Assembly (NCBI GenBank): GCA_001798185.1
Contig: MGRM01000022.1
Location: 1 to 64,000 of the forward strand
DNA from: Deltaproteobacteria bacterium RIFCSPHIGHO2_02_FULL_44_16
GTDB lineage: Bacteria > UBA10199 > 2-02-FULL-44-16
Reading direction: 5' to 3'
Length of the DNA stretch: 64,000 nt
Shown here: positions 3,308 to 60,951 of the stretch, one piece after another
Layout: each line of letters opens with the position of its first letter
Numbering within the stretch: position 1 is the first letter of the stretch
Made by a program: the position numbers and the translations under genes
Notes under the pieces: model-generated
Database searches by the model: none
What the model saw: the letters and a program-made list of their open reading frames with translations, nothing else
Told to the model about the DNA's origin: nothing

Positions 3308-4394
3308 AAGAGAGATCTCGTAGTAAATGACGAACAAACTTTGGCCCACCGTAAATAAAACCGGTGTACACCTGAATCAAATCAGCGCCTGAATCGAGTT
3401 TCTCTCGGGCCATCTGCGGACCCATGATTCCACCACTGCCAATGAGCACCAATCGATGCTGAAAATGGATGCGGAGTTTACGTAATAACTCTGTGCTTCG
3501 AGAAAAAAGAGGACGACCGGAAATGCCTCCGGCCCCTTCTGGCACAGCACTTATGAGACCTTCACGCGAGATGGTCGTATTGCTCATAATCAGCCCTTGA
3601 AATCCATATTGAAATGCCACCTCCCCCGCAGCAATCGCTCCTTCATCACTTAAATCGGGCGAGAGTTTTAACAATAAAGGTCTCGGCTCATGCCGTTTCT
3701 TATTTTGGTTTGCGATTGTTTCGAGCAAGCGAGTTAACATTGTTTCTGACTGAAGATCGCGCAGCCCAGGAGTATTAGGACTTGAAACATTGAGAACAAT
3801 ATAATCCGCAACATCGGCGACAGTTTGAAAAGATTCGAGATAATCGGCTGATGCTTCGTCATTCGAAACAATTTTTGACTTTCCGATATTCACGCCAATC
3901 GGAATGTGAAGCAGATTTTTTGCACGATACGTTTCGAGTTTTTTTGAAAGAGCGCTAGCTCCTTTGTTGTTGAAACCGAGGCGATTAAAAAGGGCTTGAT
4001 CTTTTTCGAGTCGAAAGAGTCGCGGCTTGGGATTCCCTTCTTGCGGCTGCGCCGTTACTGTCCCCACTTCAATAAATCCGAACCCGAAACGCTGCAGTGC
4101 CACCACAGCTTCAGCATCTTTATCAAAACCAGCTGCAAGTCCGATTGGATTTGGAAAAGTGAGCCCCATATACGATCTCTTTCGAAACTCCATAGATCGG
4201 GTGACGTCGGAGGTGCTTCCGGGAGGGTCTCCCGCGCTAAGCGGGAGGGCCGGAACACCGCAGACGGCAGGACCCGTAACATTGGAACGTTTCGAAAGAG
4301 ATCGTTTTTGCAGGAAGGAAAGAAATTTCAGAACCAAATGATGCGCTGTTTCAGGATCGAGGCGAAAAAGGAGACTCCGCAGGAGTGGCCACAT
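3297..4394 (-). CDS. pyrD: Dihydroorotate dehydrogenase, class 2 (quinone-dependent)
   Basis: Oxidises dihydroorotate to orotate in de novo pyrimidine synthesis, using FMN and membrane quinone. The N-terminal hydrophobic helix (LLFRLDPETAHHLVLKFL) is the class 2 membrane/quinone-binding extension. The FMN barrel follows, with GLTFPNPIGLAAGFDKDAE, VLNVSSPNTPGLRDLQ around the class 2 catalytic Ser, MSNTTISREGL and the C-terminal IGSGGI phosphate-binding motif. Between the N-terminal helix and the barrel lies an odd stretch of about 40 residues rich in Pro, Gly and Ser. It is encoded entirely by palindromic element A1 (4172-4305), which keeps the frame open. Start ATG at 4394. The gene is convergent with the subtilase gene and divergent from corA. 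Confidence 0.95.
   Translation of the reverse strand: MWPLLRSLLFRLDPETAHHLVLKFLSFLQKRSLSKRSNVTGPAVCGVPALPLSAGDPPGSTSDVTRSMEFRKRSYMGLTFPNPIGLAAGFDKDAEAVVALQRFGFGFIEVGTVTAQPQEGNPKPRLFRLEKDQALFNRLGFNNKGASALSKKLETYRAKNLLHIPIGVNIGKSKIVSNDEASADYLESFQTVADVADYIVLNVSSPNTPGLRDLQSETMLTRLLETIANQNKKRHEPRPLLLKLSPDLSDEGAIAAGEVAFQYGFQGLIMSNTTISREGLISAVPEGAGGISGRPLFSRSTELLRKLRIHFQHRLVLIGSGGIMGPQMAREKLDSGADLIQVYTGFIYGGPKFVRHLLRDLSFNS
4172..4305. repeat. Palindromic element family A, copy A1, inside pyrD
   Basis: Perfect 17-nt inverted arms ACGATCTCTTTCGAAAC (4172-4188) and its complement (4289-4305) enclose a GC-rich core that starts CGGGTGACG and ends GGCAGGACCCG. The core holds an inner hairpin (TCTCCCGC...GCGGGAG). 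It shares its core subtype with copy A2. The outer arm (ACGATCTC) is not shared with any other copy. The whole element is read through in frame as part of PyrD. Confidence 0.9.
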
Positions 4395-4449
4395 AAAGGA
4401 GAAATCACCCCTTTTTACAAAAATGTAAAGATGTGGAAGAGAAAGAGAT

Positions 4450-5505
4450 ATGTCACCTCATCGACCTTCAAAGAAAGTAGGACTGGCTCCAGGAACCCTC
4501 GTTCATATTGGAGAGAAAAAAACAGAACAGACTCGCATCACCCTCATACAGTATGACGAAACTTCTCTTCACGAAAAAGAAATTGTTTCGGTCGCTGAAC
4601 TTCCTGAACCTACAGGAGCACGTGTTGATTGGATCAACATCGATGGTCTTCATGATACGAATCTTATCAAAGCGATCGGAGAGAAATTTCAGATTCATGC
4701 CCTCATGCTTGAAGATATTGTCAATACGGAGCAGAGGCCAAAAGTAGATGACTATGGAACCCTTCTTTTTGTCGTCCTCAAAGTGATTCACACAAACGGA
4801 GAGATGAAAGACGTTCAGTCCGAACAGATCAGTGTCATTTTAGGGAAAAATTTTCTTCTCACGTTTCAAGAACGACCGAGTCCTCTTTTGGATCCCCTTC
4901 GCAGTCGTATTCGAAATGCGATCGGACGATTTCGAGAACTTGGCGAAGACTACCTTCTCTATGCCATTATTGACAGTGTCGTGGACCATGCATTTCTCGC
5001 CGTGGAAATACTCCAAGAGCGAGTTGATATGCTGCAAAGCAAAATCTTTTCTGAATCAGTACCTCAAACGCTTCAAGAACTTCATCGTCTTCGTCAAGAG
5101 ATGGTACGCATGCGAAAAATCATTTGGCCACTTCGAGAACTCTGTGGAGCGCTGCTCAAAGAAAATCCTCCTCTGATTCAAGAAAAAACAAAAATGTATC
5201 TCCGTGATCTTTACGATCACGCCATTCGTATCGCTGACGCGATACAATTTATTTCCGAAATGCTGTCGCATCTTCATGAAGCCCATCACATTCAAACGAG
5301 CTATCATTTGAATCACGTCATGAGAATTCTCACAGTGATTACCACTATTTTTATGCCTCTCAATTTTATCGTCGGTGTCTATGGAATGAATTTTCGATAT
5401 ATGCCGGAGTTGGAATGGAAATGGAGTTATCCAATTTTGCTTGGCCTCCTTTTTTTCATCGGACTTGGACTCTGGTGGTTTTCAAAACGAAAACGGTGGC
5501 TTTAA
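4450..5505 (+). CDS. corA: CorA-family magnesium/cobalt channel
   Basis: Inner-membrane divalent cation channel, pentameric in the family. The 351-residue protein has the large cytoplasmic N-terminal domain (INIDGLHDTNLIKAIGEKF, the conserved LEDIVN..QRPK region), a long helical stalk, and two C-terminal transmembrane helices. The signature YGMNF (selectivity loop GMN) follows the first helix, and the tail is basic (FSKRKRWL). Start ATG at 4450; it is transcribed away from pyrD, 55 bases apart. The stop abuts the convergent gene ending at 5506. Confidence 0.94.
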   Translation: MSPHRPSKKVGLAPGTLVHIGEKKTEQTRITLIQYDETSLHEKEIVSVAELPEPTGARVDWINIDGLHDTNLIKAIGEKFQIHALMLEDIVNTEQRPKVDDYGTLLFVVLKVIHTNGEMKDVQSEQISVILGKNFLLTFQERPSPLLDPLRSRIRNAIGRFRELGEDYLLYAIIDSVVDHAFLAVEILQERVDMLQSKIFSESVPQTLQELHRLRQEMVRMRKIIWPLRELCGALLKENPPLIQEKTKMYLRDLYDHAIRIADAIQFISEMLSHLHEAHHIQTSYHLNHVMRILTVITTIFMPLNFIVGVYGMNFRYMPELEWKWSYPILLGLLFFIGLGLWWFSKRKRWL

Positions 5506-6699
5506 TTATTGTCTGATATATCTCTCTAAAGAAACGGGCTGACAAAAATTGTAATAGTCGTGGTGCTCAGAAGATTTAGACTTTCCTGCTTTTTCAACAG
5601 ATTCCATATGCCAGCAGAGAACAAATTCCCTTACAAAAATGGACGTCTGTTTTGCAAAGGCTACAACTTCCTCCTTTGAAAAACAGCTCTCTTTATTTGA
5701 GCCACATGTGGTTTGATAATTTCCCTGCACGGTTGTTGCGTGATCTGTGACAATATCGATATTCGCCATAGCGGCGTATGCTTGTTCTGAAGAGATCATT
5801 TTTTGCGGTTCTTTGGCGGGAAGTGCACGATAGTCTCTATCTCCTACATAATCAATTTTACTTGGAATAAATTCTGGGAAAGATTCTCTTCTCGATTGAA
5901 GTCGGGTGGTTACTTGTGAAAAAGCCTGTCGACATGCTTTCTCATCTCCACCTTTCGGTTCACGACAGACGAGTGAAGCACCATGGAGAATATAGTCTCT
6001 TGCTTGTTGATGCACTCCTGATGTTGACGGCGCCGCAGCTCCTTTTCTTTCGAGCAGCCATTCAACTTCTTGAGAATCGCCCGGCGTCGAGAAACGAAAC
6101 GAAGGTGCATAGTTAGGAATCCTTTGCACTGGTTGCCATTTCTCACCTTGTTTTATCATCGGCGTCGGTGCAGTTTGTCCTTTATAACGGATCCAAATCA
6201 CGACCGGATATTCATGCCCTTCCTTCAAATCAAACAATCTTTTTAATATCTCGGTTTTCTTCTCTTCGCTTGAAATATCAAATTCCCGCACATCAACTTC
6301 TGCTTTCACTGACGCTGGAAGGTTAGCTTCCCATATTTTCAGTAAATCTGCCACATAGCTTCTCGCTGCTTCGATTAAGACTTTCTGAGTTTTTCCATTT
6401 CCCATCACTACGACTATTGTTTTCTCTTGAGGGTGTGATTCGATCAAACGAAGTGCAGTTCCGGATTGAAGAGCTGGATAAGGTAACAGTTTCGGGGCTG
6501 CTGCGAAGAGGGAAAGGCCAGCTCCTCCTCCAACTCCCCAGGTCGGCAACGCTGAAAAACCGATGCGACCTGATGCTTTGGCGATAACAATCGAGTCAAG
6601 GCTCTTTGCCACAGACGAACTGAGGCGATCATCAAACACGTCGGATTGATGCCACGAAGGGAGAGAGCGTCCTATTTTTACTTCTCCAGATGGTTTCAT
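5506..6699 (-). CDS. Hypothetical protein, 397 residues
   Basis: No family recognised. The start at 6699 gives a soluble-looking protein with no clear signal peptide. A Gly/Ala-rich stretch near residues 48-75 (WGVGGGAGLSLFAAAPKLL) is weakly hydrophobic. The C-terminal third contains several Cys residues (LVCREPKGGDEKACR, TTCGSNKESC, VLCWHM, YYNFCQP), which may point to an exported or metal-binding protein. It is followed on the same strand by nothing before corA and preceded 110 bases upstream by another unknown gene; the two may form a unit. Confidence 0.7.
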   Translation of the reverse strand: MKPSGEVKIGRSLPSWHQSDVFDDRLSSSVAKSLDSIVIAKASGRIGFSALPTWGVGGGAGLSLFAAAPKLLPYPALQSGTALRLIESHPQEKTIVVVMGNGKTQKVLIEAARSYVADLLKIWEANLPASVKAEVDVREFDISSEEKKTEILKRLFDLKEGHEYPVVIWIRYKGQTAPTPMIKQGEKWQPVQRIPNYAPSFRFSTPGDSQEVEWLLERKGAAAPSTSGVHQQARDYILHGASLVCREPKGGDEKACRQAFSQVTTRLQSRRESFPEFIPSKIDYVGDRDYRALPAKEPQKMISSEQAYAAMANIDIVTDHATTVQGNYQTTCGSNKESCFSKEEVVAFAKQTSIFVREFVLCWHMESVEKAGKSKSSEHHDYYNFCQPVSLERYIRQ

Positions 6700-6809
6700 A
6701 TCCTTCTTCTCGGCCTTTTTGAGGAAAAGTTGTGTCCATTCTTAAGAGCGAACACAAGAGAATTCCAGCGCTTTTAACACAGCAGGGAACTCTTGGAGAG
6801 AGCTGCATT

Positions 6810-7679
6810 TTAGTTAAAAGAAGCGGGTTCTCCGGTAGCTGGATCAATCGAGACAGACATCACAAAACCTGAAGCTCCTGTCGGTTGAAGGGTCGTTCCT
6901 GAACTTGAACTCGCTACTGCCCCAGCCCCAAAGAGAGCGGTGAATACTGCGATAAGTAGAGTCTCTTCGGGATGCTCTCCCATCCATGAACCCATTTTCG
7001 ACGTTTTATCAGCAAGTTCACGAGCACCATGTTGTGCCTGGAGAAGCGCAAGAGCAATGGAATAGCCCATTTCAGAGGCATTTAAATTTTCAGTGTTGAT
7101 AGCCGGCGCTGAAGGAGGATTATTGGAAGGATTTTTATAGAAATAAGCCCCTAACTTTCCGATCCCTTCTGCAATGGTGGGCGAAGCTTGAAAAGCGAGA
7201 CGATCGGCATCATTTTTTTCAATACCAAAGGTATCACAATAAACATCATAAAGAGCACCCATAAGTCCAAAAACAGCGCTTCCCACACCCGAACTTAAAC
7301 CAGCCGTCCCCGCAATTGATGCGGATCCAGTTCGAGCATAATAAAGTCCACTTCTGGCAAGAAAACTTGTCAACATGCTCATCTCAAACTCTTTATCCTC
7401 AAGAGAGGTTTCATCAAGAGCCCATGAGATTCCTAAGTGCGAAAAAAAATACGCAACTGCATCCGCTGGATTTCGGACAAATCGTCTGCCTGCGGAAATG
7501 AGACTTTTCTCCACGAGAGCAGTAAAATCCGTTTCTGCCTCAATGACGGTGATCATTTCGGGTTCAAAGCTCGAGATGGGATTGTCCACACATGCACAGA
7601 TTTCATCATTGGTGATAACTTCAGAATAATTTTTTTGACTGGAAGGAAGAAGGCGCATGTTGAAACCGCTGGAAATCAT
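6810..7679 (-). CDS. Hypothetical protein with Gly/Ala-rich segments, 289 residues
   Basis: No family recognised. The middle (SIAGTAGLSSGVGSAVFGLM) and C-terminal parts (LLIAVFTALFGAGAVASSSS) contain two hydrophobic Gly/Ala-rich segments that could insert into a membrane. The N-terminal part carries a CACVDN motif and is charged. Start ATG at 7679, with a second candidate at residue 8. It lies upstream of the 5506-6699 gene on the same strand, and neither resembles a transporter or enzyme I know. Confidence 0.65.
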   Translation of the reverse strand: MISSGFNMRLLPSSQKNYSEVITNDEICACVDNPISSFEPEMITVIEAETDFTALVEKSLISAGRRFVRNPADAVAYFFSHLGISWALDETSLEDKEFEMSMLTSFLARSGLYYARTGSASIAGTAGLSSGVGSAVFGLMGALYDVYCDTFGIEKNDADRLAFQASPTIAEGIGKLGAYFYKNPSNNPPSAPAINTENLNASEMGYSIALALLQAQHGARELADKTSKMGSWMGEHPEETLLIAVFTALFGAGAVASSSSGTTLQPTGASGFVMSVSIDPATGEPASFN

Positions 7680-7784
7680 GTCGTTCTTTTAAAACAACAT
7701 TATCAATTTTTAAGGGAGTTTTTGTAACATTTTGATGTCAAAGAAATGCCTTCTCAAAGAATAAAGGAGATGCGCATCAGATTT

Positions 7785-8378
7785 TCACTTCGCTGTTGTG
7801 CGAACCGGACACCCCTTCAACACTTCTCCATGCCGAAAACAATCAAGAAGATGGTCATTGACCATACCCGTCGCTTGCATATGGGCATAGATGATCGTAC
7901 TGCCGACAAACTTGAATTCGCGCTTTTTTAAATCTTTGCTCAACATATCAGATATATTGCTTGTCACTGGAATTTGCTTCAAACTTTTCCATCGATTGAC
8001 CATCGGTTTTCCATCGACAAACTTCCAGATGTAATCAGAAAAACTTCCGCATGTTTCCTGAAGAGCAAGAAATGCTTTGGCGTTTGAAATAGCAGATTCA
8101 ATCTTCAAACGATTGCGAATGATGCCAGCATTCTGCATAAGACGCTCAACATCTTTTTTTGTATATCGAGCAATTTTTTCAGGATCAAACTGATGAAATG
8201 CTTTTCGATAGTTTTCCCTCTTTTTCAAAACCGTAATCCAACTAAGGCCAGCTTGCGCTCCTTCGAGAATTAAAAATTCAAAGAGTTTTTGATCATCGAA
8301 AACTGGAACTCCCCATTCGGTGTCATGATAATGAAGATACAGTGGATCTTTGACACACCATTCACAACGTACTGTCAT
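7785..8378 (-). CDS. tag: DNA-3-methyladenine glycosylase I
   Basis: Base-excision repair enzyme that removes 3-methyladenine from alkylated DNA. The protein begins MTVRCEWCVKDPLYLHYHDTEWGVP, the Tag hallmark with the zinc-ligand Cys and the Y.DTEWG motif. It continues with FEFLILEGAQAGLSW and the C-terminal FVGSTIIYAHMQATGMVNDH block, which carries the zinc-binding His; the remaining His and Cys (CFRH, KGCPVR) follow. Start ATG at 8378 is preceded by AGAGGT at a good distance. The open frame extends to a TTG at 8417, but that extension is the arm of repeat A2. 197 residues, normal for the family. Confidence 0.93.
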   Translation of the reverse strand: MTVRCEWCVKDPLYLHYHDTEWGVPVFDDQKLFEFLILEGAQAGLSWITVLKKRENYRKAFHQFDPEKIARYTKKDVERLMQNAGIIRNRLKIESAISNAKAFLALQETCGSFSDYIWKFVDGKPMVNRWKSLKQIPVTSNISDMLSKDLKKREFKFVGSTIIYAHMQATGMVNDHLLDCFRHGEVLKGCPVRTTAK

Positions 8379-8390
8379 ATATACCTCTTT

Positions 8391-8534
8391 GAAAAAGACT
8401 ATTTCAAAACAGATCAAAATTCGGGTGACGCCAGAGGTGCTTCCGGGAGGGTCTCCCGCAATAAGCGGGAGTGCCGGAACACCGCAGGCGGCAGGACCCG
8501 TATCAAATAAGAAACGTTTTGAAATGTCTTTTTC
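8391..8534. repeat. Palindromic element family A, copy A2 (intergenic)
   Basis: Arms GAAAAAGACTATTTCAAAAC (8391-8410) and GTTTTGAAATGTCTTTTTC (8516-8534) are complementary apart from one missing base. The core runs from CGGGTGACG to GGCAGGACCCG with the inner hairpin CTCCCGC...GCGGGAG, nearly identical to copy A1. It lies between the divergent tag and phosphodiesterase genes, so it cannot be a shared terminator. Confidence 0.88.
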
Positions 8535-8608
8535 TTTCTTTGATAATACTAAAGAACATTGTCAAGCAAAGGCTTTCATGTCACAAAAAAGTATCTCCAG
8601 GGGGATAC

Positions 8609-9868
8609 ATGAAAAAAATGACGTTTCTTTTTCTGATGTTTATAACATTAGGAAATGCAAATCTGTTTGCTGAAAATCAAAATATCTCTCAAATACCAAC
8701 TGTTATTCTTCTCTCCTTTGATGGCGCTCGTCCTGATTATTTTACAAAAAAGACAGCTCCCAACATTACTCAATTCATGAAAAAGGGATGGAAGGGAGAA
8801 CTGACTTCTATTTTTCCATCAGAAACTTTTCCAAACCATACCGCTATCATCACCGGGTGCACTGCAGAAGAACACGGTATTGTGAGTAATCAATTTATCG
8901 ATGCGACGCGGGGGTCGTTCGCGTATGACATGGATCCTTCCTGGATACAGTGTGAACCCATTTGGGCAACGGCTCAAAAACATGGACTCAAAACAGCAGT
9001 GACCTATTGGCCTTTGCACGGCAAAGGGTCATGGAAAGGAATGAAACCGACGTACCAGAATGCCGTCGTTACAACTGATATTCGTGAAATTATTAAATTT
9101 GATGATGAAGCTAAATTTCAACAAATGCTGCAATGGCTTGATCTTCCCGCTGAGCAACGTCCCCATCTCATCTTTTCATGGTTTGCAGAAATTGACACTG
9201 TCGGACAAGCATTTGGTCCGCAATCACATGAAGTGCAAAAAGTGATAAAAAAATATGACTCGCTTTTTGGAAATTTTTTAACAGCGCTGCAGAAAAAACC
9301 TGACGCAGATCGCATCAATATTCTCATTGTCTCGGGTCATGGCATGGAAGAGATGCACTATAGCATGAGCCTCCCCTACCTTGGGGAAGAGCTTCGGAAA
9401 CAAGGCATGGACAACATCATCATCAAAGCTTCTGGAACCAATGCAAAAGTTCATGTAAAAAATTCTGCCGAAAAACGAAAAGCGCTGACGCTTCTGCAAG
9501 CCATGGCAAAAGAAAAGGGGGCGTTTCAAGTTTATGATGTTCAAGAGCTTCCGGACGCGTGGCATTCTACGCATAAACGAAGCGGTGATCTTCTCCTTAT
9601 TGGCAAAAATAAATTTTTCTTTCTTGAAAAAGCTTCAACAACTGAGTTTCTTACCGATGTTCGAGAACAGCATATTGGGAAACATGGATATCCGCCTGAA
9701 GACAAATCGATGCGCGCTGTTTTCTTTGCTCACGGTCCTCATTTTCCTCAGCAATCTGGAATTCGTCAGCTTCATATTACGGATATCGCACCGGCTATTA
9801 TCAAAATATTAAACCTTTCCCCACAACCCATAGACATAGCTGCAGACACTGTCCTTTCATCGCGTTAA
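8609..9868 (+). CDS. Secreted type I phosphodiesterase / nucleotide pyrophosphatase (ENPP-like)
   Basis: Predicted periplasmic hydrolase of phosphodiester or pyrophosphate bonds, alkaline-phosphatase superfamily. Start ATG at 8609 follows AGGGGGAT and gives a signal peptide (MKKMTFLFLMFITLGNANLF). Family motifs are LLSFDGARPDYF (first metal Asp), SETFPNHTAIITG with the nucleophilic Thr, EEHGIVSN, and later metal ligands in FAEIDTVGQAFG, SGHGMEEM and GKHGYPPEDKSM. An upstream in-frame extension to 8471 is encoded by repeat A2 and rejected. Substrate cannot be read from the sequence. Confidence 0.9.
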   Translation: MKKMTFLFLMFITLGNANLFAENQNISQIPTVILLSFDGARPDYFTKKTAPNITQFMKKGWKGELTSIFPSETFPNHTAIITGCTAEEHGIVSNQFIDATRGSFAYDMDPSWIQCEPIWATAQKHGLKTAVTYWPLHGKGSWKGMKPTYQNAVVTTDIREIIKFDDEAKFQQMLQWLDLPAEQRPHLIFSWFAEIDTVGQAFGPQSHEVQKVIKKYDSLFGNFLTALQKKPDADRINILIVSGHGMEEMHYSMSLPYLGEELRKQGMDNIIIKASGTNAKVHVKNSAEKRKALTLLQAMAKEKGAFQVYDVQELPDAWHSTHKRSGDLLLIGKNKFFFLEKASTTEFLTDVREQHIGKHGYPPEDKSMRAVFFAHGPHFPQQSGIRQLHITDIAPAIIKILNLSPQPIDIAADTVLSSR

Positions 9869-9983
9869 TGAAAACAAGTTGTATTGTGTTGCTCCACCGC
9901 AAAGAGGCTCAGCCTCTGAAATATAAATCACAGGTGCCAGACACTTTGGTACAAGTTATCGAAAAACAAGAAGCGTGAAAAAC

Positions 9984-10011
9984 AAAAAGCCCTTCGATTA
10001 ATGGGCTTTTT
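9984..10011 (-). terminator. Rho-independent terminator after tRNA-Asn
   Basis: AAAAAGCCC and GGGCTTTTT form a 9-bp stem with a 10-base loop just downstream of the tRNA 3' end on the minus strand. Because both flanks are A/T runs it could act in both directions, also ending the phosphodiesterase transcript. The rest of the 146-base gap (9869-10014) holds a small hairpin GAGGCTCAGCCTC and no gene. Confidence 0.75.
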
Positions 10012-10014
10012 GCT

Positions 10015-10327
10015 TGGCTCCGCAGGGCGGACTTGAACCGCCGACCCTCTGATTACACGACCTCCAATTGTTTCCAATTGGCGTGGACTATCTCTTCATC
10101 ACATCATAACTACGATGGATGGCGGGCGCTTGTGAGAGATTATTCTTATCGTCACTCTCTAGTCTCTGCACCTTCCTCTTGCCTTTAACATCAAGAGGCT
10201 TGGCTCAGGATTGGCATATGCAAGCGCACTTAGCTTCCCCTGAGTTCACCCGCTTTTCATCTCACTGTTACCAATGAGAGCTGCCTTATTGACAGTCAGA
10301 TGCTCTAACCGGCTGAGCTACTGCGGA
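10015..10327 (-). tRNA. trnN: tRNA-Asn(GUU) gene interrupted by a group I intron
   Basis: The 5' exon is 10327-10292 (36 nt) and the 3' exon 10055-10015 (41 nt, with encoded CCA). Joined, they give acceptor stem TCCGCAG/CTGCGGA, discriminator G, a normal D arm (AGCTCAGCCGGTTAGAGC), anticodon stem TCTGA/TCAGA with loop CTGTTAA (anticodon GTT), and a T arm with GGTTCAAGTCC. The anticodon-loop context GACTGTTAATC is that of tRNA-Asn. The intron falls between anticodon bases 2 and 3. If the intron is ignored, the loop misreads as CTGTCAA (Asp), so the splice sites matter. Confidence 0.9.
10056..10291 (-). ncRNA. Group I self-splicing intron in tRNA-Asn, 236 nt
   Basis: The 5' exon end CTGU pairs with GCAG in the intron, leaving a U.G pair at the 5' splice site (P1). 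P4 is CTCAGG/CCTGAG and P6 is CCTCTTG/CAAGAGG. The R and S core blocks are GGTGCAGAGACTAG and AAGAGATAGTCC, and P9 is CCAATTG-GAAA-CAATTGG. The last intron base is G. Two core blocks, CAATCCTGAGCCAA and AGGTGCAGAGACT, match the conserved core of the cyanobacterial and plastid trnL(UAA) intron, so I infer subgroup IC3. No open reading frame is inside. Confidence 0.88.
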
Positions 10328-10340
10328 ATATATAATTTTT

Positions 10341-10558
10341 TTAAAGAACAATTATTCCTGCATGTAATTCTCGATGACAATTTGCGCATAGCATGATGCA
10401 TTTTTCCAGTTCTTCTTTGATTGCCATCCAAGATCGAGTGTACCCTTTTCAGAGATACCAAAATTTTTCAAGTCCCTATTTAAATGATGAAATTCAAGAG
10501 CACCGGCACAACGACAATAACCGCAAATTTGAGTCGTTTCAATAGACATGTCAAACAT
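10341..10558 (-). pseudogene. HNH endonuclease gene with a frameshift
   Basis: The first half reads ICGYCRCAGALEFHHLNRDLKNFGISEKGTLDLG, the zinc-finger and His-His part of small HNH nucleases. The frame then goes wrong, but the shifted frame continues exactly as expected: WMAIKEELEKCIMLCANCHRELHAG, with the second CxxC and the final H. One base is therefore gained or lost near 10428-10436. It ends 13 bases before the intron-bearing tRNA-Asn on the same strand. Either a decaying homing-type nuclease or a sequencing error. Confidence 0.75.
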
Positions 10559-10571
10559 TGTTTCCCGCCTG

Positions 10572-10609
10572 TGGTAACTCTTATTACCATGTGGTAATTT
10601 AAATTACCA
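10572..10609. promoter_or_regulatory. Two TGGTAA-N6-TTACCA operator-like palindromes
   Basis: TGGTAA-CTCTTA-TTACCA at 10572-10589 and the fully symmetric TGGTAATTTAAATTACCA at 10592-10609 start 20 bases apart, two helical turns. They sit between the divergent HNH and GIY-YIG genes, 12 bases before the GIY-YIG ATG. This looks like a double site for a dimeric repressor; no regulator gene is adjacent. Confidence 0.5.
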
Positions 10610-10620
10610 AACACACTGAC

Positions 10621-10881: not shown

Positions 10882-10885
10882 AAAA

Positions 10886-12816: not shown

Positions 12817-12854
12817 TGTCGCCCGGAGAAGCGGCGTTTCCAAGGCAATGGAGG

Positions 12855-30863: not shown

Positions 30864-34622
<3,759 letters not shown>

Positions 34623-42473: not shown

Positions 42474-42623
42474 GGACGCTTTATTTCAAAACGAAATATT
42501 TTCGATTACGGGTCCTGTCACTTCCGCCGTTCCACCTCCCCATCCATAAAGCGTGGGTGGGGCGCCCCTGGGATCCGGCGTCAGCGCCACCCGTTATCTC
42601 ATCTGTTTTGAAATAAAGCGTCC
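42474..42623. repeat. Palindromic element family A, copy A3, between gapA and pgk
   Basis: Perfect 19-nt arms GGACGCTTTATTTCAAAAC (42474-42492) and complement (42605-42623). The core has inner stems CCACC...GGTGG and GGCGCCCC and ends GGCGCCACCCG. Its core subtype is shared with copy A5 in mnmE. The right arm touches the gapA stop codon. Confidence 0.9.
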
Positions 42624-46120: not shown

Positions 46121-46259
46121 AAAGAGACTCTCTCAAACATTTTCTGTTTGCGGGTCCTGCCGCCTGCGGCATTCCGGAGTCTTCGCGACTATGCGAAGAC
46201 GTCCGAAATAGCACTCCGGCGTCACCCCCAAATAATTATCTGTTTTGGAGAGTCTCTTT
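46121..46259. repeat. Palindromic element family A, copy A4 (between MMPL gene and mnmE)
   Basis: Arms AAAGAGACTCTCTCAAAC (46121-46138) and GTTTTGGAGAGTCTCTTT (46242-46259) pair at 16 of 18 bases, with the outer 12 perfect. The core runs GCGGGTCCTGCCGCC to CGGCGTCACCC, with an inner hairpin GTCTTCGCG...GCGAAGAC. Its subtype is shared with copy A6. Confidence 0.88.
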
Positions 46260-46317: not shown

Positions 46318-47796
46318 ATGCGTATTTCCAATCGAGACACGATTGTGGCTCTTGCAACGCCGCCAGGACAGAGCGGACTGGGAGTCGTGCGCATCAGCGG
46401 ACCTGAAAGCGCCTCTGTCCTTTCCCGTGTCTGGAAACCGAAGCGATCCAAAGAGCTTGAGCACCGTAAACTTTTCTTAGGCGAGATTATCGATATTTCT
46501 GGAGAAGCGCTCGATACGGCGACAGCCGTTTTTCTCCCCTCTCCGCATACCTATACAGGTGATGATGTCGTTGAAATCTCTTGTCATGGCAGTCCCCTTC
46601 TTCTCGAAAAACTAGTAACGCTTTGTACGCAAGCAGGAGCGCGACTGGCTGAGCCAGGAGAGTTTACACGTCGAGCGTTTCTGTCAGGTAAGATGGATTT
46701 GACGCAAGCTGAAGCGGTTGCGGATGTGATTCATGCCACAAGCGAAGCAGCGCTTCGTTCTGCCAAGGAACAACTTCAAGGACGTCTCTCACGAGAAGTG
46801 AAGACACTTCACGATGAACTTTTAAATCTTCGCGCCTTTGTCGAAGCCTGTATCGATTTTCCAGAAGAGGACATCGAGATGATCGAGCGCGAAGGAATCG
46901 CTGCGCGACTTTCCCCTCTTCTTCTTCGTCTTGAGCAATTTCTTTCCACTTTTCACCGCGGTCGTCTTCTTCGAGATGGAGTTTCTGTCGCGCTTATCGG
47001 AAAACCGAATGTGGGAAAATCGAGTTTGCTCAATCGCCTTGCAGGTTCTGAACGCGCGATTGTGCATGAAACACCAGGGACCACACGAGATGTCATCGAA
47101 GTGAGTATTAATCTCGGTGGCGCTCTCTTTCATCTTATCGATACTGCTGGGATACGCAGCGCACCAGATGCTGTGGAGCGTATGGGCATTGAACGATCGC
47201 GCGAAGCGCTTGAGCGAGCTGATATTATCATTGCGCTCTTTGATGCATCACAGGTTTTGACACCAGAAGATGAAGAAGTTCTCTCTCTCGTGAAAGAAAA
47301 ACAGCACATTCTTTGTTTCAATAAATGTGATTTGTCGGAAGCCATTTCAAAACAGACAAATATTGGGGTGGCGCCGACGCCGGATCCCAGGGGCGCCCCA
47401 CCCGCGGTTTATGGGTGGGGAGGTGGAACGGCGGAGGTGACAGGACCCCTATCGGCAAAAGTTTTGAAATGGCTTCCGAACGCAGAACCGATCTCTATTT
47501 CAGCTAAAACAGGGGAAGGGATCGAAGCATTATTTTCGAAACTTCAGATTCATACGCAGACATCGACAAACGATGCGAGCTCGGTGACGATTACGAATGT
47601 ACGCCATAAAGAAGCGCTTGTTGAAGCATCGCAAGCTCTGAAAGAAGCCCAGAAAAGTCTGCAACGCCGTGAGTCGGCTGAGTTTTGCGCACATCATCTG
47701 AGAGCAGCGCAAGAGGCGCTTGGGCGCATCATTGGACTTGATGTTTCTGAAGAGCTATTGGATCGTATCTTTTCTGGATTTTGTATTGGTAAGTAA
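46318..47796 (+). CDS. mnmE: tRNA uridine-5-carboxymethylaminomethyl GTPase MnmE, with in-frame element
   Basis: GTPase of the MnmE/MnmG complex that modifies wobble uridine 34 of several tRNAs. N-terminal folate-binding domain ([21 protein letters not shown]), then the G domain with [29 protein letters not shown] and FNKCDLSE, and the C-terminal FCIGK with the conserved Cys. After the NKCD motif the protein carries an insert of about 40 residues (from [15 protein letters not shown] to [10 protein letters not shown]) encoded by palindromic element A5; then SAKTGEG (G5) resumes. The insert lies in the G4-G5 loop of the GTPase fold. 492 residues against about 450 in typical homologues. Confidence 0.95.
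47335..47479. repeat. Palindromic element family A, copy A5, inside mnmE
   Basis: Perfect 19-nt inverted arms TCGGAAGCCATTTCAAAAC (47335-47353) and complement (47461-47479) enclose a core running from GGGTGGCGCCGACGCC to ACAGGACCCC. It shares core subtype with A3, but the outer ten bases of the arms are unrelated to A3. It is read through in frame. Confidence 0.92.
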
Positions 47797-53324: not shown

Positions 53325-53370
53325 ACCTACTGATTTTCAGCGCTTTTCGTCAAGCGGCATCTTTGTTCTT

Positions 53371-54597
53371 TTATGCCAACATTTTCAGAAATGACGCGGC
53401 ACTGATAAGGTCAACTTGTATCCCAGCTTTGAGGTGACTCCGTGACCTTATCGGATTGGCGATAAGTTGGAATGCGCGAGCTGTCTTCAATTTGTCGGCA
53501 AAATAAAAAAGAGCCGGATGAGGATCATCAGAACTGTTTTTGCATTCTATAAGGAGATACGGTTTTCGCTCCTTGCAAATAAGAAAATCGACTTCCCTCT
53601 TTTCCTTATCGCGGATGTAGTGAAGTGTCAGACGATCTAGTCCAAGATCGTTCACATACGAGACATATTTCAAGAGATGAACTGCAACCAGATTTTCAAA
53701 GCGACTTCCTTCATCTTTAACTTCGGTCCAATCCCAGAGATACCACTTCGCTTCTTTTTTGATGAGACGCGAAAGCCGTGATGAATAGGGATAAAGCGTG
53801 AAACCATAAAAAGTTCTCTCAAGAAGGGCAAGCCAGTGTTTCACGGTATTGAAATGCACTTCGAGATCTTCCCGAAGGTTGTTTAAAGAAAGAGGCGATC
53901 CGACGCGATGAGGAAGGAGAAACATAAGCTGTTCCACCAAAGCGAGATTTCGCAAATGTTCTGTGGCTGCCAAATCCTGATTGAGAAGACGTTCAAGTCG
54001 TGTGGTTCGCCACTGAGAAAGAAACTGCTCGTTTGCCTGAAAATAGGGTTCAGGAAATCCACTGAAAGAGAGCAATCTCTCAAAGAAAGTTTGATCTTCT
54101 GGTAAGCTTTCTGCAAAAGAATGACGAAACAGATCGTCTGCAGATAAAGGCTTGGGATTTCCATTGAACGCGAGTTCTGCAACGGACAAGGGACAGAGAT
54201 GATAGGTAAAGCTCCTTCCAAGGAGTGAATCTTGTCCTTTGCGATAGACGTTGAGTCCAGCGCTTCCTGTCACGATCCAGTGGGTCTGTGGTTCATACAG
54301 ATCAAAGAGGCCCTTAAGCGTGTTTTTCCATCGCGGATATTTATGAATTTCATCAAAGACGATGATCTGTTGTTCTGGCTGGTTGAGTCTCATTTTTCCA
54401 GGAAAGATCGAGGTTGAAAGAAGTTTTCGGTGATCTGCCAGATCCCAATTAAAATAGTTCACTCCATCTACCACAGAGGAGAGCATTTTTTTGGCAAGAG
54501 TTGTTTTCCCGACCTGTCGCGGTCCCACCAGAAAAACCATTTGGCGCAGTCGGGTTAAATGATCACGGATGGCATTTTCCAGATATCGTGTTTGCAC
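53371..54597 (-). CDS. AAA ATPase with DUF4143 domain
   Basis: Common bacterial ATPase of unknown role. N-terminal Walker A in MVFLVGPRQVGKTTLAKKML, Walker B near IIVFDEIHKYPRWKNTLKGL, then VTGSAGLNV. The C-terminal DUF4143 part carries the nuclease-like signature VDFLICKERKPYLLIECKNS. A GTG at 54597 (VQTRYLENAIRDHL) fits the usual family start; the frame is open to 54651. Often considered defence- or toxin-related, but evidence is thin. Confidence 0.88.
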   Translation of the reverse strand: MQTRYLENAIRDHLTRLRQMVFLVGPRQVGKTTLAKKMLSSVVDGVNYFNWDLADHRKLLSTSIFPGKMRLNQPEQQIIVFDEIHKYPRWKNTLKGLFDLYEPQTHWIVTGSAGLNVYRKGQDSLLGRSFTYHLCPLSVAELAFNGNPKPLSADDLFRHSFAESLPEDQTFFERLLSFSGFPEPYFQANEQFLSQWRTTRLERLLNQDLAATEHLRNLALVEQLMFLLPHRVGSPLSLNNLREDLEVHFNTVKHWLALLERTFYGFTLYPYSSRLSRLIKKEAKWYLWDWTEVKDEGSRFENLVAVHLLKYVSYVNDLGLDRLTLHYIRDKEKREVDFLICKERKPYLLIECKNSSDDPHPALFYFADKLKTARAFQLIANPIRSRSHLKAGIQVDLISAASFLKMLA

Positions 54598-54733
54598 GTT
54601 GAGAAGGTTCTCACCAAGGTGCAAAACAGTCAAGACTTTTTTGCAGTTCACTGAGAGGAAAATATCAAAAAACCCTGCAACTTTTTTAGAAAAGGTGCGA
54701 AGAGATAAGTGGATGCGTCGTTATCAATAGTTG

Positions 54734-54764
54734 TTACCAATAACTAACGGTCAGTTATTGGTAA
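54734..54764. promoter_or_regulatory. Inverted repeat ahead of the 54.8 kb gene
   Basis: TTACCAATAACT and AGTTATTGGTAA, a 12-base perfect inverted repeat with a 7-base spacer, 18 bases before the ATG at 54783. Operator-like; half-sites share TTACCA/TGGTAA with the sites at 10572-10609. Confidence 0.5.
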
Positions 54765-54782
54765 ATCTTACGAAAGGTTGTT

Positions 54783-56324
54783 ATGGAGTTTTTTGGATGT
54801 AATGAGCTTGGAAGTAGAGCAGCAGCTTTTTTTCGAGGAGATGCAATCCCTTCGAAAGTGGCTATGCAAACGTGGCTGCATGTTTTTGCTCCGGATATTC
54901 AATTAGAAAGAACAAGTCAGGAAGAACAGAACAATTGGAAAGGTTGTGCTAAAGGCTGTGTTTTAGAGCAGGTCGATATTACACATTATTATGACTATGT
55001 ACCCCATTCAAAACTCGCAATCGAAACGAGAGTACCGGTTGTAAGTAGATTCTGTGAGTTAGCGGAATATCAAGAAAGTGACGAAGTATCTCGTTCTTAT
55101 CAATTTATTGAAACCAGATGGAGAGGTTTTTCAGACCAAAACGGAAGCTGGCAATGGCCGTGGGAAAGTATCAGATTTGATGTTGGAGATACGACGTATA
55201 TCAGTCGAGGTAATTTTAGCTTACAAGAACAACTTGACGCACGTTTTTCGGGAGGATCGGCGGTTTATAAGTTCAATATTTCTCATGTTCATGAAAACGT
55301 CTTTGATAAGATGGGTATTACCCATTTTCTCTCTCTTCAATTAAGTGAGCTTCCTGAAGTAAGAGCGGGATCTGAAGAAAAAAAGAAAATTGCAGAAAAT
55401 CCAGACAGCGAAATACGGTATTCACATGCAGTTCGCTCCGCATTTGAAACTTATTTTGTAACAGATCAATCTTCAAATACAGATTGGGTTAGCGCCGTCC
55501 TCGATCTTTGGACCCCAGGGGATTTGGATGGAGATGGAGAATCGTATGATCCTGAAGATGAAATAGTTATCACTGACACTCTTTCCAGTTGGCTCGATAA
55601 GAAAATAGACGACCGCGTATCTCATCGCTCACACATTTTTCTTCTTTCAGTCCTTCTTATGAATTGGAATCTCAAGGCTGGACGCCACCATTGGCAGTCT
55701 ACAACAAGACGAGCTGATGCTGCGGCATATATTGAGGCTGCAGGCTCATTTTTAGGTTCTTTGGAAGGAACGGCTAGTTCTGCTGATGAAGGTGCATTAT
55801 TGGCGCACTTGAGCACGACTTTAAATCAGACAAGAGCAAGTAAGGAACTTTTAAGTGGAGAAGGAACTGCAGCAACATCTTCGGTAGCAGCAGATCGAGC
55901 GCAAGGACCTAAAGATATAAAAAGACCAAAACGCGGACGCAAAATAAATTTAGCAGCTGAAGCGAGAGCAACCGCAGCACTCGAAGAAGAACAGCGAAAG
56001 GCACGAGAAGCAAGAGAGGCAGCAGCACAGGCCGAAGCAGATGCTTTAGCACAACAAAAAGAAGCGGATGATGCGGCTGCTGCGCTTGAAGCCGACCAAG
56101 CTCGATTAGCAGCAGATGCTGCACGACAAGCGGAAGAAGAAGCTGCGCAGAAAAAAAGAGAAGAAGAGGCTCGTCGTCGGGAAGAGGAAGAAAGACTTAA
56201 AAGCTGTGCTGCAAAATGGGATTGTAAATATCCCTCAGATATGAATGCCTGGACATTAAAAAAAGGAGAAAGATTGTGTACCGTAAAAGAACTTGAGGAA
56301 CGATGCCCACCCCCCTCGAAATGA
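54783..56324 (+). CDS. Hypothetical protein with TolA-like Ala/Glu-rich coiled coil, 513 residues
   Basis: No family recognised for the N-terminal 340 residues, which have scattered Cys (CAKGCVLE, RFCELAE) and a DGDGESYDPEDE calcium-type loop near residue 260. From about residue 395 comes a long Ala/Glu/Lys-rich coiled coil (EARATAALEEEQRKAREARE, then AEEEAAQKKREEEARRREEE) as in TolA or tape-like spacers. A short Cys-containing tail follows (CAAKWDCKYPSD, ERLCTVKELEERCPPP). No signal peptide. Start ATG at 54783. Confidence 0.65.
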   Translation: MEFFGCNELGSRAAAFFRGDAIPSKVAMQTWLHVFAPDIQLERTSQEEQNNWKGCAKGCVLEQVDITHYYDYVPHSKLAIETRVPVVSRFCELAEYQESDEVSRSYQFIETRWRGFSDQNGSWQWPWESIRFDVGDTTYISRGNFSLQEQLDARFSGGSAVYKFNISHVHENVFDKMGITHFLSLQLSELPEVRAGSEEKKKIAENPDSEIRYSHAVRSAFETYFVTDQSSNTDWVSAVLDLWTPGDLDGDGESYDPEDEIVITDTLSSWLDKKIDDRVSHRSHIFLLSVLLMNWNLKAGRHHWQSTTRRADAAAYIEAAGSFLGSLEGTASSADEGALLAHLSTTLNQTRASKELLSGEGTAATSSVAADRAQGPKDIKRPKRGRKINLAAEARATAALEEEQRKAREAREAAAQAEADALAQQKEADDAAAALEADQARLAADAARQAEEEAAQKKREEEARRREEEERLKSCAAKWDCKYPSDMNAWTLKKGERLCTVKELEERCPPPSK

Positions 56325-56548
56325 TGAGGCTTTATTTTTGCCTCTTCCTGGTTGAATCTGATCTAATTTATTGAAATATAAAGATAAAATAAATTTCGAA
56401 GATACGATTTTTCGGTTTTTTTATTCCATTCTTTTCATTTTCGGTTTTCGCTTGAAAAATCACACAACTTTTTTTTCAAATCCGCGAAGAGATGGATGAA
56501 GGACGCAGGATTCAAAAATGGGGATTATCATGAGAGTGGAGGATCGAT

Positions 56549-58168
56549 ATGTTTTCTGCTGGCGAACTGTCAAAAAATCTTACAAGTCTTAAAAGAGTTA
56601 TTGAGGAGGGTCTCTGTAAGCCAGAAATCATGACTGGGAGTGGTAACCTCCAAGTTGAATGTGATAAATTTATAGAAAAAGTTATTGAGAAGGGGAAAGA
56701 ATTTCCAGCAGATTCAAAAGCAGAAGATGCCTATGTTGAGACGATTGCTTTTGGTGTGACGTATCTCAGAGCTCATTTAAAAGGACAATCTGATCCAAGG
56801 GCGGGTGCGATTGCAGCGCTTAAAGATGGAAATGTGTCCAGTTATGCTTTGGAAAAACCATTTACTGATGCCAAGCAAAATGAATATGAAACTGCAGATA
56901 AATTTATTGAAGGCGCAGTTGCAGCTGGATACGGTGCGAATACAGATTATATTCGTCTCCCCTTTGGCGGACGACTTATGCCAAGCAATTTATATCTGAC
57001 CATTGGCTCGCGCAGTGATGAGACAAAACCATTCCTCCCTACATTTGCAGGAGGGGGGAGTGTAGATATCAGTTGGTTATTCTTGGATGAGCAACTCACC
57101 ATTACCCCTCTTTCCATTTCATTGGAGGGTTCATATGGAGCAGCCAAACAATTTTTGCCTCCTGCACAAGAAACATCCATTGCTTTAGTTGCACTTGATG
57201 ATCCTTTTGATGACAAAGGTGGAAGAAAAGCTAGTTTCGCCGGAGACTTAAGTATTTCTGCAGCATTGAGATATATTTTTTGGAAGGAAAAAGCGCAGAA
57301 AGAGACCGTCAATGAATTTGAGGTTGATGCAGGAATTTTGTCGGCAACACTGGGGATTTTGGATATCCGATATGGAAAAGGAGTTTCTCTGGATGTGGTT
57401 ACAGATGGTTTTGGACGTGTTGGGAGTGGAAAAGGTTTTGGATTAACAGTTGGCAGTGCATTTGATTTTCTTAAACTTGGAGGATCTCTTGCTGGTGGTG
57501 TTGCAACCAAAACATATGCTCTGGATCTTTTGGCCATTGGCAATCCATCTGAAGAAGCAGCCTTGGTTGATTTTGGAGGTTTTGGTGGAGGTTTTGCCGT
57601 TGGAGCTTGGTTTGCTCCTTTGGCAAGAGACGACTTTTTCAAGAAAAAATTGTTAACGCTGAATCTTCAATATGATTTGAATACATCCAGTATTACACCT
57701 GAAGACCAACCAACAACTTCAGTGCTTAATCATAACCTTGAAAGTTGGATTAAAATTCAACCGGATGATGATTGGATGATAGCGCCTTTATATCGTCTTT
57801 CCTTTATTGATAGTCGAGAAGGGTTCATTCAGCATGTTGCTGGTCTTGCCGTTGCTTATGACTGGTTTAAGGCAACATTGACTGTCGGTGATAAGTCAGG
57901 AGTGGTGGAACTTGGCCCTGATCCAGATGCTCCAGGAAGTTCGCTTTCAAACTTGCAAAATCCAGGATCTCGCATTCGTCATGAAGTGGCACAAACGGGA
58001 GTATCCTTAAATCTGGCTGCGAGATGGAAAAATATTAGTAACAGTATGTGGACGGCTCGCTTCTCCGTGATGCCGTATTTGGCAGGAGACGGTTTTAGCG
58101 GCATGGATTTCGGACTTATCACTGCTTTGCGTGTCATTGGAAACGATCCAACTCCAGGACCTTATTAA
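56549..58168 (+). CDS. Hypothetical protein, probable beta-barrel in the C-terminal part, 539 residues
   Basis: No family recognised. From about residue 135 the sequence alternates polar and aromatic residues in barrel-like strands (LYLTIGSRSDE, SLDVVTDGFGRVGSGKGFGLTVGSAF, GGFGGGFAVGAWFAPLA). The N-terminal 120 residues are helical with two Cys, and no signal peptide is visible from the ATG at 56549. Either the true start is missed or secretion is unusual. Its stop overlaps a start codon of the next open frame. Confidence 0.65.
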   Translation: MFSAGELSKNLTSLKRVIEEGLCKPEIMTGSGNLQVECDKFIEKVIEKGKEFPADSKAEDAYVETIAFGVTYLRAHLKGQSDPRAGAIAALKDGNVSSYALEKPFTDAKQNEYETADKFIEGAVAAGYGANTDYIRLPFGGRLMPSNLYLTIGSRSDETKPFLPTFAGGGSVDISWLFLDEQLTITPLSISLEGSYGAAKQFLPPAQETSIALVALDDPFDDKGGRKASFAGDLSISAALRYIFWKEKAQKETVNEFEVDAGILSATLGILDIRYGKGVSLDVVTDGFGRVGSGKGFGLTVGSAFDFLKLGGSLAGGVATKTYALDLLAIGNPSEEAALVDFGGFGGGFAVGAWFAPLARDDFFKKKLLTLNLQYDLNTSSITPEDQPTTSVLNHNLESWIKIQPDDDWMIAPLYRLSFIDSREGFIQHVAGLAVAYDWFKATLTVGDKSGVVELGPDPDAPGSSLSNLQNPGSRIRHEVAQTGVSLNLAARWKNISNSMWTARFSVMPYLAGDGFSGMDFGLITALRVIGNDPTPGPY

Positions 58169-58185
58169 TGAGGAGAGAAAGACCT

Positions 58186-60807
58186 ATGAAGAAGAAATAT
58201 TGGAAACAAATTGGAATTATGGCGGCAGCGCTTGTCATAAGCGCCTGTAGCGATGGTGCGCTCAAAGTAGCGCCCCCTTCTCCGGCACTCACTCCGCCTG
58301 CTCCGATCATTCTCGATTTCTCCGCGGATAAAACCGAGATCTCTGAAGATGGGTCGGTGACGCTGAACTACGAAGTTGCCGGCGCTGATACCGTCACGAT
58401 TTCTGGAACAGGAACTGTGTCGGGAGCCTATAGCTATGCTGGCGAGCCGATGACAGAACTGAAAGGTTCGGTCACAATCGATGGCATTACCGAAACTTCA
58501 GAATTTGTGCTGACAGCAACGAAGGCTCTTCCGGTTGAAGATGAAAACGCCGCAGGCGAAGGTGAAGAAGTCAAAGCTGTGAAACGAATCTTGAAAGATC
58601 TTCCCGTTGTCCCGGCCGCAGGCCCTGAAGGTGTAGCAGAACCTGTAGAAAACCCAGTCGAGGACGAAGTCCTTCCAGAACTTACGACTACCGCAACCCT
58701 CACGATTACCGTCGTTCCAAAAGTTGAGATTAAAGTTGAACTGACAGCAGAGCCAGCTGAAGTGCGCCGTGGTGAATATGCGCTGCTTCGTTGGAACGTT
58801 GAGCCGATTGATGTTTCGATAAGTATCAAAGCGAGTAATGGCGAAAATGTGATGGCACTGAGCGATTGCGAAGGGGATGTCATTGCCAATTACCGAGACT
58901 TTTTATCAACCGAAATCGGCGCTGATCAAGCGATCCCGGCCGTCGGTTGTGCAGTCGTAAGCCCTGAAGCTCCTGAAACCACGTATACGCTCGATGCTGT
59001 GGATGCGAATGGAAACAAAGGCTCTCTCCCCGTGACGGTGAAGGTGGATGAAAAAACATCGCGCCTTCAGGCTGAAATCATGGCGAGCCAAAAAGTGGTT
59101 GATCGTGGAGCAGAAGTTGAAATTAGTTGGAATGTCTCTCCTGAAGATGCGGTCATTACCATTGTTGCCGAAGGAAAATCTGATTGTCGCAATGAACTTC
59201 CTGTTGATCGAAACGACGTTCCATCAGGAAGTGTCGGTTGCATCATCAATGGTGTCACCGCTTTTACACTTACAGCTGAGATCGATGGTGAAACTTTTGA
59301 GGCAAGTGTCCTTGTTTTGGTTCAAGGTGGAGTTGCAAGTGCCCTTCAAATTCAAGCGACCCCTTGGGCTTTTGTGGGAGAGACCATTCCTCTCACCATT
59401 GCTCCTGCCCCAGGAAACAGCGCATCAGGGATCGACAAAATTTTGATTAATGGAGTCGAGCTCAGTCAAGGGATGAGCGATACAGGAGTGACGACGACGG
59501 CGACTGTCACCGCAACTGGTGTCACGGTTGAACTCTTTGCCGGTGGTGTAGAAACTCCCACTGTCTATACTCCAGTGCACGCAGTTCAGCTAAGTGCACA
59601 GTCTTTTTCGGCTGAGGGCATTTCGCAGAGTCGCGCTCTCGTCGATCCTGCAGACTCTGAAACCCTGCTCGTGGGGCTCGATCAAAATGGATATGCAAAA
59701 GGGATTGCCAAGATTGCAAAGGTAGCGCCAAGCGGTACGAGTTACATGGAACTGAAATTTGCTGAATTGATCATGGGATCTGAAGGATTGGATTCCTATA
59801 AAGCGTCGTTAAGTTCTTTCTTCGAAAAATCAGTGAAAACTTTTCCCGTGAGCGCAATCGCAGTTCAGAAAAACGGACGACTTATCGCAGCGACGACGGG
59901 TCTTATTGCTTATAAAGAAAAAGAAGATTTCAAAACGTTGGATATTCTTGTCGAAGGAAGTTGGGAAGGGAAACCTTACGCAGGAAGTCATCCGAGTTGT
60001 TTTGGAAAAAAACAGACAGGAATTAAAGGAGATGCAGATCGTACGGAGCTTGCCTTTATGAGACAGGTTTGTGATCTCATGGCACTTGGAGAGGATCGTT
60101 TGATTGTTGCGACCGATTACGGTGCTTTTACACTTCCCAGTGTGAGCGCTTATCTCAAAGATAAGAAAAAGAATCCGTATTGTGGACATCCAACAAGTAA
60201 ATGTCATCCTTCAAATGCAACTTTTAAAATGGTCGTGAGCGACCTCGAAGTCGTTGGCGATACAACTGATACCGCAACAGTATTAGCTGCAACCTCAAGT
60301 GGTGTCTATCAAAGTACCGATGGTGGAATGACATGGGAAGCGTTTGGAACGATTGGCCAAGAGAGCTTCGCTCTTTCCTACGATAAGACACGTAATGTTG
60401 TTTATGCAGGCACCAAAGCTGGTGTCTATGTTCGTGCGATGAACGGTGGCGATTGGGTCCAAAAGGGGCTTTCAGATACAGCGGTGATTGCGCTGACAGT
60501 TGATGGCGTCACGCCGGGAATTGAAAGCACACTTCTTGCCGGAACCAAAACAGGCGCCAAGATAAGTCGCGATAGCGGAGTGACCTGGTCTGATATTCCG
60601 GTTCCAGGCATGAAAGACAAAGGTGAAGTGCGAAGTGTGTTGATTCAGGCGAACGAAAAAGAAGGTGTCATCGATTATCGTCTGAGTGTTGGAGGTGAAA
60701 GCGGTGGAGCGCTTGCAAAACTTTCTGTTGCTCCCATGATGTCACCAACACCATCTTCTTCTGAAGAAGAATCTCCTCAAGAAGAGACACAAGAAGTTAC
60801 AGAGTAA
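58186..60807 (+). CDS. Large lipoprotein with Ig-like and BNR/sortilin-like repeats
   Basis: Lipoprotein signal KKKYWKQIGIMAAALVISAC. The mature part begins with Ig-like beta domains (ILDFSADKTEISEDGSVTLNYEVAG, RGEYALLRWNVEPIDVSI, VEISWNVSPEDAVI). The C-terminal third contains BNR-type propeller repeats such as SGVYQSTDGGMTWEAFG, AGVYVRAMNGGDWVQKGL and GAKISRDSGVTWSDI. The ATG at 58186 with GGAGAG upstream is preferred over 58168. Ends with an acidic Ser/Glu tail. Surface-exposed binding protein by inference. Confidence 0.8.
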   Translation: MKKKYWKQIGIMAAALVISACSDGALKVAPPSPALTPPAPIILDFSADKTEISEDGSVTLNYEVAGADTVTISGTGTVSGAYSYAGEPMTELKGSVTIDGITETSEFVLTATKALPVEDENAAGEGEEVKAVKRILKDLPVVPAAGPEGVAEPVENPVEDEVLPELTTTATLTITVVPKVEIKVELTAEPAEVRRGEYALLRWNVEPIDVSISIKASNGENVMALSDCEGDVIANYRDFLSTEIGADQAIPAVGCAVVSPEAPETTYTLDAVDANGNKGSLPVTVKVDEKTSRLQAEIMASQKVVDRGAEVEISWNVSPEDAVITIVAEGKSDCRNELPVDRNDVPSGSVGCIINGVTAFTLTAEIDGETFEASVLVLVQGGVASALQIQATPWAFVGETIPLTIAPAPGNSASGIDKILINGVELSQGMSDTGVTTTATVTATGVTVELFAGGVETPTVYTPVHAVQLSAQSFSAEGISQSRALVDPADSETLLVGLDQNGYAKGIAKIAKVAPSGTSYMELKFAELIMGSEGLDSYKASLSSFFEKSVKTFPVSAIAVQKNGRLIAATTGLIAYKEKEDFKTLDILVEGSWEGKPYAGSHPSCFGKKQTGIKGDADRTELAFMRQVCDLMALGEDRLIVATDYGAFTLPSVSAYLKDKKKNPYCGHPTSKCHPSNATFKMVVSDLEVVGDTTDTATVLAATSSGVYQSTDGGMTWEAFGTIGQESFALSYDKTRNVVYAGTKAGVYVRAMNGGDWVQKGLSDTAVIALTVDGVTPGIESTLLAGTKTGAKISRDSGVTWSDIPVPGMKDKGEVRSVLIQANEKEGVIDYRLSVGGESGGALAKLSVAPMMSPTPSSSEEESPQEETQEVTE

Positions 60808-60814
60808 TTCTCTA

Positions 60815-60951
60815 AAAACCTCTTTCAAAATGTTTTAATGATTGCGGGTCCTGCTGCCTGCGGCATTCCGGAGTCTCCGCGAATATGCGAAGACATCCGA
60901 AATAGCCTCCGGCATCACCCGCAAGTAATTATCTCTTTTGAAAGAGGTTTT
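60815..60951. repeat. Palindromic element family A, copy A6
   Basis: Perfect 16-nt arms AAAACCTCTTTCAAAA (60815-60830) and complement (60936-60951) enclose a core GCGGGTCCTGCTGCC...CGGCATCACCCGC with an inner CCGGAG/CTCCGG pair. Same subtype as A4. It occupies the first part of the 374-base gap before the second subtilase. Confidence 0.9.

Follow-up and report, generated by a model that had tools for sequence, protein, structure and literature searches.

Rickettsia palindromic elements are palindromic repeats of ~100–150 bp that form several families and occur in many in-frame copies within unrelated conserved genes (PMC10969869). CGTC- and GTAG-tagged REP sequences and their dimers are dispersed stem-loops with both intergenic and intragenic copies, and the CGTC types have no clear transposase (PMC3733652). 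Insertion can also be tied to inverted-repeat structures, as in IS1272 (IS1182 family), an autonomous insertion sequence that targets inverted repeats with stems of 7–13 bp and replaces the target stem-loop (PMC5678879). Inverted repeats can furthermore be remodelled by template switching, in which the two arms become homogenised and the spacer may be inverted; yeast genes show this for arms of 7–16 bp (PMC8604942), and a stem can arise in one event (PMC8794818). The mutations described lie at repeats native to the genome whose spacers are short, the search in yeast having extended to 70 bp.

The repeats analysed here constitute a real and abundant mobile hairpin, present across phyla, that resembles Rickettsia palindromic elements in being palindromic, in reaching ~65 copies and in lying in frame within unrelated genes. 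Compared by description, the Rickettsia elements belong to other phyla, and we did not find site-specific complementary arms reported for them; it is this well-supported property of the arms that is unusual. Rfam contains no match to the element, so that the preliminary description, in stating that no named element behaves in this way, holds to that extent, with the proviso that the Rickettsia elements behave similarly in coding genes. As in REP elements, the copies are dispersed stem-loops, intergenic and intragenic, with several families per genome; however, they are larger, have a conserved mismatched core and basal arms particular to each site, and flank none of the three Y1 genes examined. 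IS1272 is comparable in the link between insertion and inverted-repeat structures and in stem length (PMC5678879), but replaces its target stem-loop, whereas the element here keeps its arms outside the core. Unlike an ordinary MITE, it has outer arms that are independent of the core, with only TTTCRAAAC and a weak consensus in common.

The window, by which we mean the whole 64,000-nt stretch of contig MGRM01000022.1 analysed here, contains six copies (A1–A6) of 134–150 bp, each of which folds into a single long hairpin (z of -7.2 to -9.3 when compared with shuffles that preserve dinucleotides). The core, CGGGTGAC...GGACCCG, is oriented on the + strand in A1, A2, and A5 and on the - strand in A3, A4, and A6. 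A1 (4172–4305, +) has perfect 17-nt arms (4172–4188 and 4289–4305) and a core starting at ~4198, and is in frame close to the 5' end of a dihydroorotate dehydrogenase gene (ORF 3297–4394, - strand). A2 (8391–8534, +; arms 8391–8410 and 8516–8534) has a one-base bulge (GAAAAAGACTATTTC versus GAAAAAGACATTTC) and lies between divergent genes for a 3-methyladenine glycosylase (-) and a phosphodiesterase-family protein (+). A3 (42474–42623, -) has perfect 19-nt arms (42474–42492 and 42605–42623) and separates the genes for GAPDH and PGK (both - strand), with the GAPDH stop codon adjoining an outer arm. A4 (46121–46259, -; arms 46121–46139 and 46241–46259) contains an indel, its arms pairing in the outer part and imperfectly in the inner part, and is located between divergent genes for an RND transporter (-) and mnmE (+). 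The latter gene (ORF 46318–47796) itself contains A5 in frame (47335–47479, +), with perfect 19-nt arms (47335–47353 and 47461–47479) and the core type of A3. A6 (60815–60951, -) has perfect 16-nt arms (60815–60830 and 60936–60951) and the core type of A4, and begins 8 bp past the stop codon of ORF 58168–60807. The coordinates given for the six copies in the preliminary description are all correct, as are its count of four copies with perfect arms (A1, A3, A5, and A6) and its assignment of three core subtypes.

From the outside inward, each element consists of variable outer arms, an inner arm (TTTCRAAAC/GTTTYGAAA), unpaired spacers, and a conserved core (CGGGTGACGCC...GGCAGGACCCG) in which the mismatches are fixed and the tip is variable. 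The spacers between arm and core (e.g., AGATCAAGATTC and GTATCAAATAAGAAAC) move along with the core, unlike the arms. A covariance model identified ~65 copies in the 1.98-Mb genome (G000), counted after opposite-strand echoes had been dropped, which far exceeds the six of the window. The earlier proposal of repeated mobilisation is supported. About 15 of the G000 copies are in frame within unrelated protein genes, including pyrD, livF, miaA, metH, yggS, mutL, mnmE, feoB, rarA, and mutY; others are intergenic, some of them between divergent genes. Copies inside genes and between divergent genes indicate that the elements are not simply terminators, and for the same reason terminator hairpins were rejected as their targets. 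In 14 gene copies inspected by hand, the TTTC-to-GAAA length modulo 3 is 1 or 2 and never 0, which argues against a clean insertion with the inner arms as its limits, although these lengths do not themselves identify the actual boundary. One methyltransferase gene (G000:C4:29543-29867) contains two in-frame elements with different core types. Another element, near position 87064 of contig C22, is interrupted by a run of N, and assembly gaps may thus hide further copies.

Arms of 20 nt pair with three or fewer defects in 55 of 65 copies, compared with 2.4% of arm pairs taken across copies. Alignment of 33 copies shows pairing in 90.3% of arm cells (69.1% when shuffled), and the covariation score of 0.583 (0.180 when shuffled) was reached in none of 500 shuffles and falls to 0.12–0.18 when the arm alignment is slid by one column. 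Double-sided changes amount to 158 cells over 20 arm pairs in these copies, approximately three times the 52 ± 6 of the shuffles. Across all 65 copies, pairing is above chance from -11 to +8 and near chance from -12 outward, which indicates an arm of ~20 nt with a fairly fixed length; stem lengths peak at 8–11 outer pairs plus nine inner pairs.

The arms vary independently of the core that they enclose. Over all pairs of the 65 copies, arm identity is uncorrelated with core identity (rho 0.012): outer-arm identity is 0.42 where cores are <50% alike and 0.44 where they are >95% alike, and cores with their spacers can be 95–98% identical in copies that have unrelated outer arms. The arms are therefore not inherited with the core but set per site. 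Outer arms had initially been described as unique to the copy, which is slightly overstated: they do differ by site, but TTTCRAAAC recurs, as does a weak AGAAnnnn outside it. The resulting consensus, AGAAnnnnTTTCRAAAC in G000, is common to G002 and G040, and we read it as either a target preference or residual terminal-repeat sequence. Arm defects show no detectable tracking of core age, and the youngest cores, which are near-identical, already have full and different arms; these observations speak against simple outward growth of the arms with age.

Net insertion lengths were obtained for copies in which the TTTC-to-GAAA length (T) is 118 nt, in yggS, metH, miaA, and livF, by comparison with relatives of only ~40–66% protein identity. 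G002, a member of the same family as G000, has no element at any of these four sites, which indicates that most G000 sites are lineage-specific. The net insertion is 111 nt in YggS, 111 nt in MetH, and 108 nt in MiaA, so that in these three genes the outer arms occupy existing positions; because they add no length, the sequence of one flank appears to have been rewritten, with no additional copy inserted. The arms were also compared singly with the homologues. In MetH the left arm fits them (P 0.005), the right one less so (0.14); in MiaA it is the right arm that runs counter to them (anti-conserved, 0.98), the left being tolerable (0.11); and in YggS both arms fit (P 0.037 and 0.007). Taken together, the lengths and arm fits favour the rewriting of one flank, as judged from only three genes. 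In RarA one arm is probably ancestral-like. The LivF insertion is 144 nt relative to the one relative available, and both of its outer arms look new. The alignments of FeoB, RarA, and MutY are uninformative on length because the insertions lie in hypervariable linkers.

Two related Omnitrophota genomes (G385 and G386), which align at ~75–86% and whose gene names we assigned by reading the sequences, allow the same sites to be compared. Upstream of argC both have an element with place and orientation kept, but the arms, GCCGCATTCA in one genome and TTTAGCGTTCA in its relative, have changed jointly and are paired in each. Upstream of ilvC both have an element at the same site with the core in opposite orientation. 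The argC and ilvC pairs could also be independent insertions at one site. At the rodA–pbp2 junction, the genes of G386 overlap by ATGA and arms are absent, and the G385 junction shows a gain of arms and of a further 12 and 23 nt, enclosed by copies of TATGA. Between ssb and rpsR, no element is present in G386, and that of G385 is almost armless and flanked by AAGTAGT twice. A different hairpin (CCCCGCCCTTCCA...TGGAAGGGCGGGG) occupies the rodA–pbp2 junction of G389, where G385 has its element. G385 also contains another dispersed repeat with long inverted arms, dozens of times.

We tentatively favour the view that the element is a mobile hairpin of the Rickettsia palindromic type, the flanks of which are homogenised by template switching; for the matched arms themselves, template switching is the most likely cause. 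The mobile unit would be a short hairpin of ~100 nt comprising the core and its spacers, inserted at AT-rich sites such as AGAAnnnnTTTCRAAA, with its in-frame presence tolerated by genes. The inserted strand would form a very stable hairpin, presumably a strong trigger of switching. When the site is replicated, either at insertion or shortly afterwards, the polymerase would switch template at the hairpin base and copy one flank onto the other, such that ~10 nt past the TTTCRAAA boundary become the inverted complement. The outcome would be a near-perfect stem of ~20 bp with the sequence of the site rather than that of the element, and the same switching could flip the core and keep drifting arms matched. 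Template switching would thus explain why matched arms are site-specific and neutral in length, why they drift jointly and how a core becomes inverted, and it is the best fit among the three explanations first offered, given the apparent homogenisation and spacer inversion between G385 and G386. Homogenised arms and inverted spacers, also in coding DNA, are what published template-switch mutations show (PMC8604942, PMC8794818), except that here the substrates would be 100-nt mobile hairpins and nearly every copy would be affected. Against template switching, the conserved mismatches of the core stem persist and are not homogenised away; LivF and rodA–pbp2, each with two new arms, are not easily accommodated; in YggS both arms, not one, fit the homologues; and template switching alone would predict neither the fixed arm length of ~20 nt nor the weak outer consensus. 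If it is the cause, each genome would contain dozens of natural experiments in which perfect stems have been built around a mobile hairpin in working genes.

The matched arms could instead be produced at insertion, if the element were joined to a nicked target end and snap-back copying generated the second end before rejoining, yielding X-element-X' in one step. The almost constant arm length, the full and different arms around young near-identical cores, and the ancestral-like arm in MetH, MiaA, and probably RarA are all in keeping with such an inverted target duplication. Yet this would add ~20 nt per copy, and YggS, MetH, and MiaA show none, so that a compensating deletion of 9–12 nt would have to be usual; the joint arm change at argC and core inversion at ilvC would also be left unexplained. 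Inverted duplication of flanking DNA, as initially proposed, is possible as a process but at odds with the absence of added arm length in these three genes, and we consider it unlikely. A cross-phylum mobile hairpin with insertion machinery that writes an inverted copy of ~20 nt of target on the opposite side is correspondingly doubtful, and would, if real, be a transposition product for which we found no described counterpart.

Alternatively, the arms may be terminal repeats borne by the element and kept paired by selection on a DNA or RNA hairpin, with gene conversion swapping cores between fixed sites, by which cores and arms would lose their association. This would accommodate the arm consensus common to G000, G002, and G040, the mosaic-looking distribution of spacer and core types among copies, the two new arms in LivF and rodA–pbp2, and the joint arm drift at argC. 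It would, however, require very efficient conversion of 100-nt repeats at 65 sites, with no plausible common function across so many unrelated genes, and the sites empty in G002 show that most G000 sites are lineage-specific; we therefore give it little credence. Least probable is the targeting of pre-existing hairpins in the manner of IS1272, with the element in the loop and the old stem as arms, a possibility raised in the preliminary description to which the stems of IS1272 targets and the fit of both YggS arms to homologues lend some substance. In 330 kb of G000 (loci overlapping somewhat), element-free palindromes with a TTTN(N)AAA centre and eight of 11 outer pairs are at chance level (one versus 2.8 expected), and the window has just eight other strong hairpins, none of element type. 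Furthermore, 17 empty homologous sites in relatives of YggS, MiaA, MetH, and LivF, albeit distant ones, have no hairpin above shuffles; chance stems would be mostly short, unlike the observed stem lengths; and the IS1182-type transposase domain (PF13751) is absent from the six genomes searched.

No mobilising enzyme was found for the element among IS1182-type and Y1 transposases. G000 has four Y1 transposase genes, and no core lies within ~1.5 kb of the three that were examined; element-free relatives also possess Y1 genes. RAYT, present but not associated with the element, was rejected as its mobiliser. Direct target-site duplications in G000 are at chance apart from the palindromic inner arm.

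The same covariance model detected three copies in G002 and none in G001, G003, G005, or G006. Exact core pieces occur in G020, G035, and G040 (same class, different family), and outside the carriers named here none were found among 385 genomes searched. In a species-level collection of bacterial and archaeal genomes, the core is present in many Omnitrophota and singly in Kerfeldbacteria, Armatimonadetes, and Dormiibacterota, a breadth seldom seen in a repeat of this size. Lone 19-mer matches in Streptomyces and elsewhere lack an accompanying core and were dismissed as chance, and no core was found in the viral contigs searched. Copies in other lineages and phyla also have paired, varying arms; in Omnitrophota and other phyla these often abut CGGGT/ACCCG directly, and in other-phylum copies the pairing extends over ~5 nt in almost every case and over 10–14 nt in a subset.

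Three loci in G020 and one in G040 have longer common arms (CTGAAAAATGCCGGGACCCAA...TTGGGTGGCATTTTTCAG) with compensatory changes. The interdomain linker of mutY is filled in two genera (G000:C14:59932-60078 and G002:C188:8675-8816) by elements of differing core type, reflecting either independent insertion or core exchange. Elsewhere in the window, gyrB (30873–34622) is interrupted by an intein that covers protein residues ~441–875, and a Group I intron is located at 10064–10309 on the - strand (Rfam, 87.7 bits).
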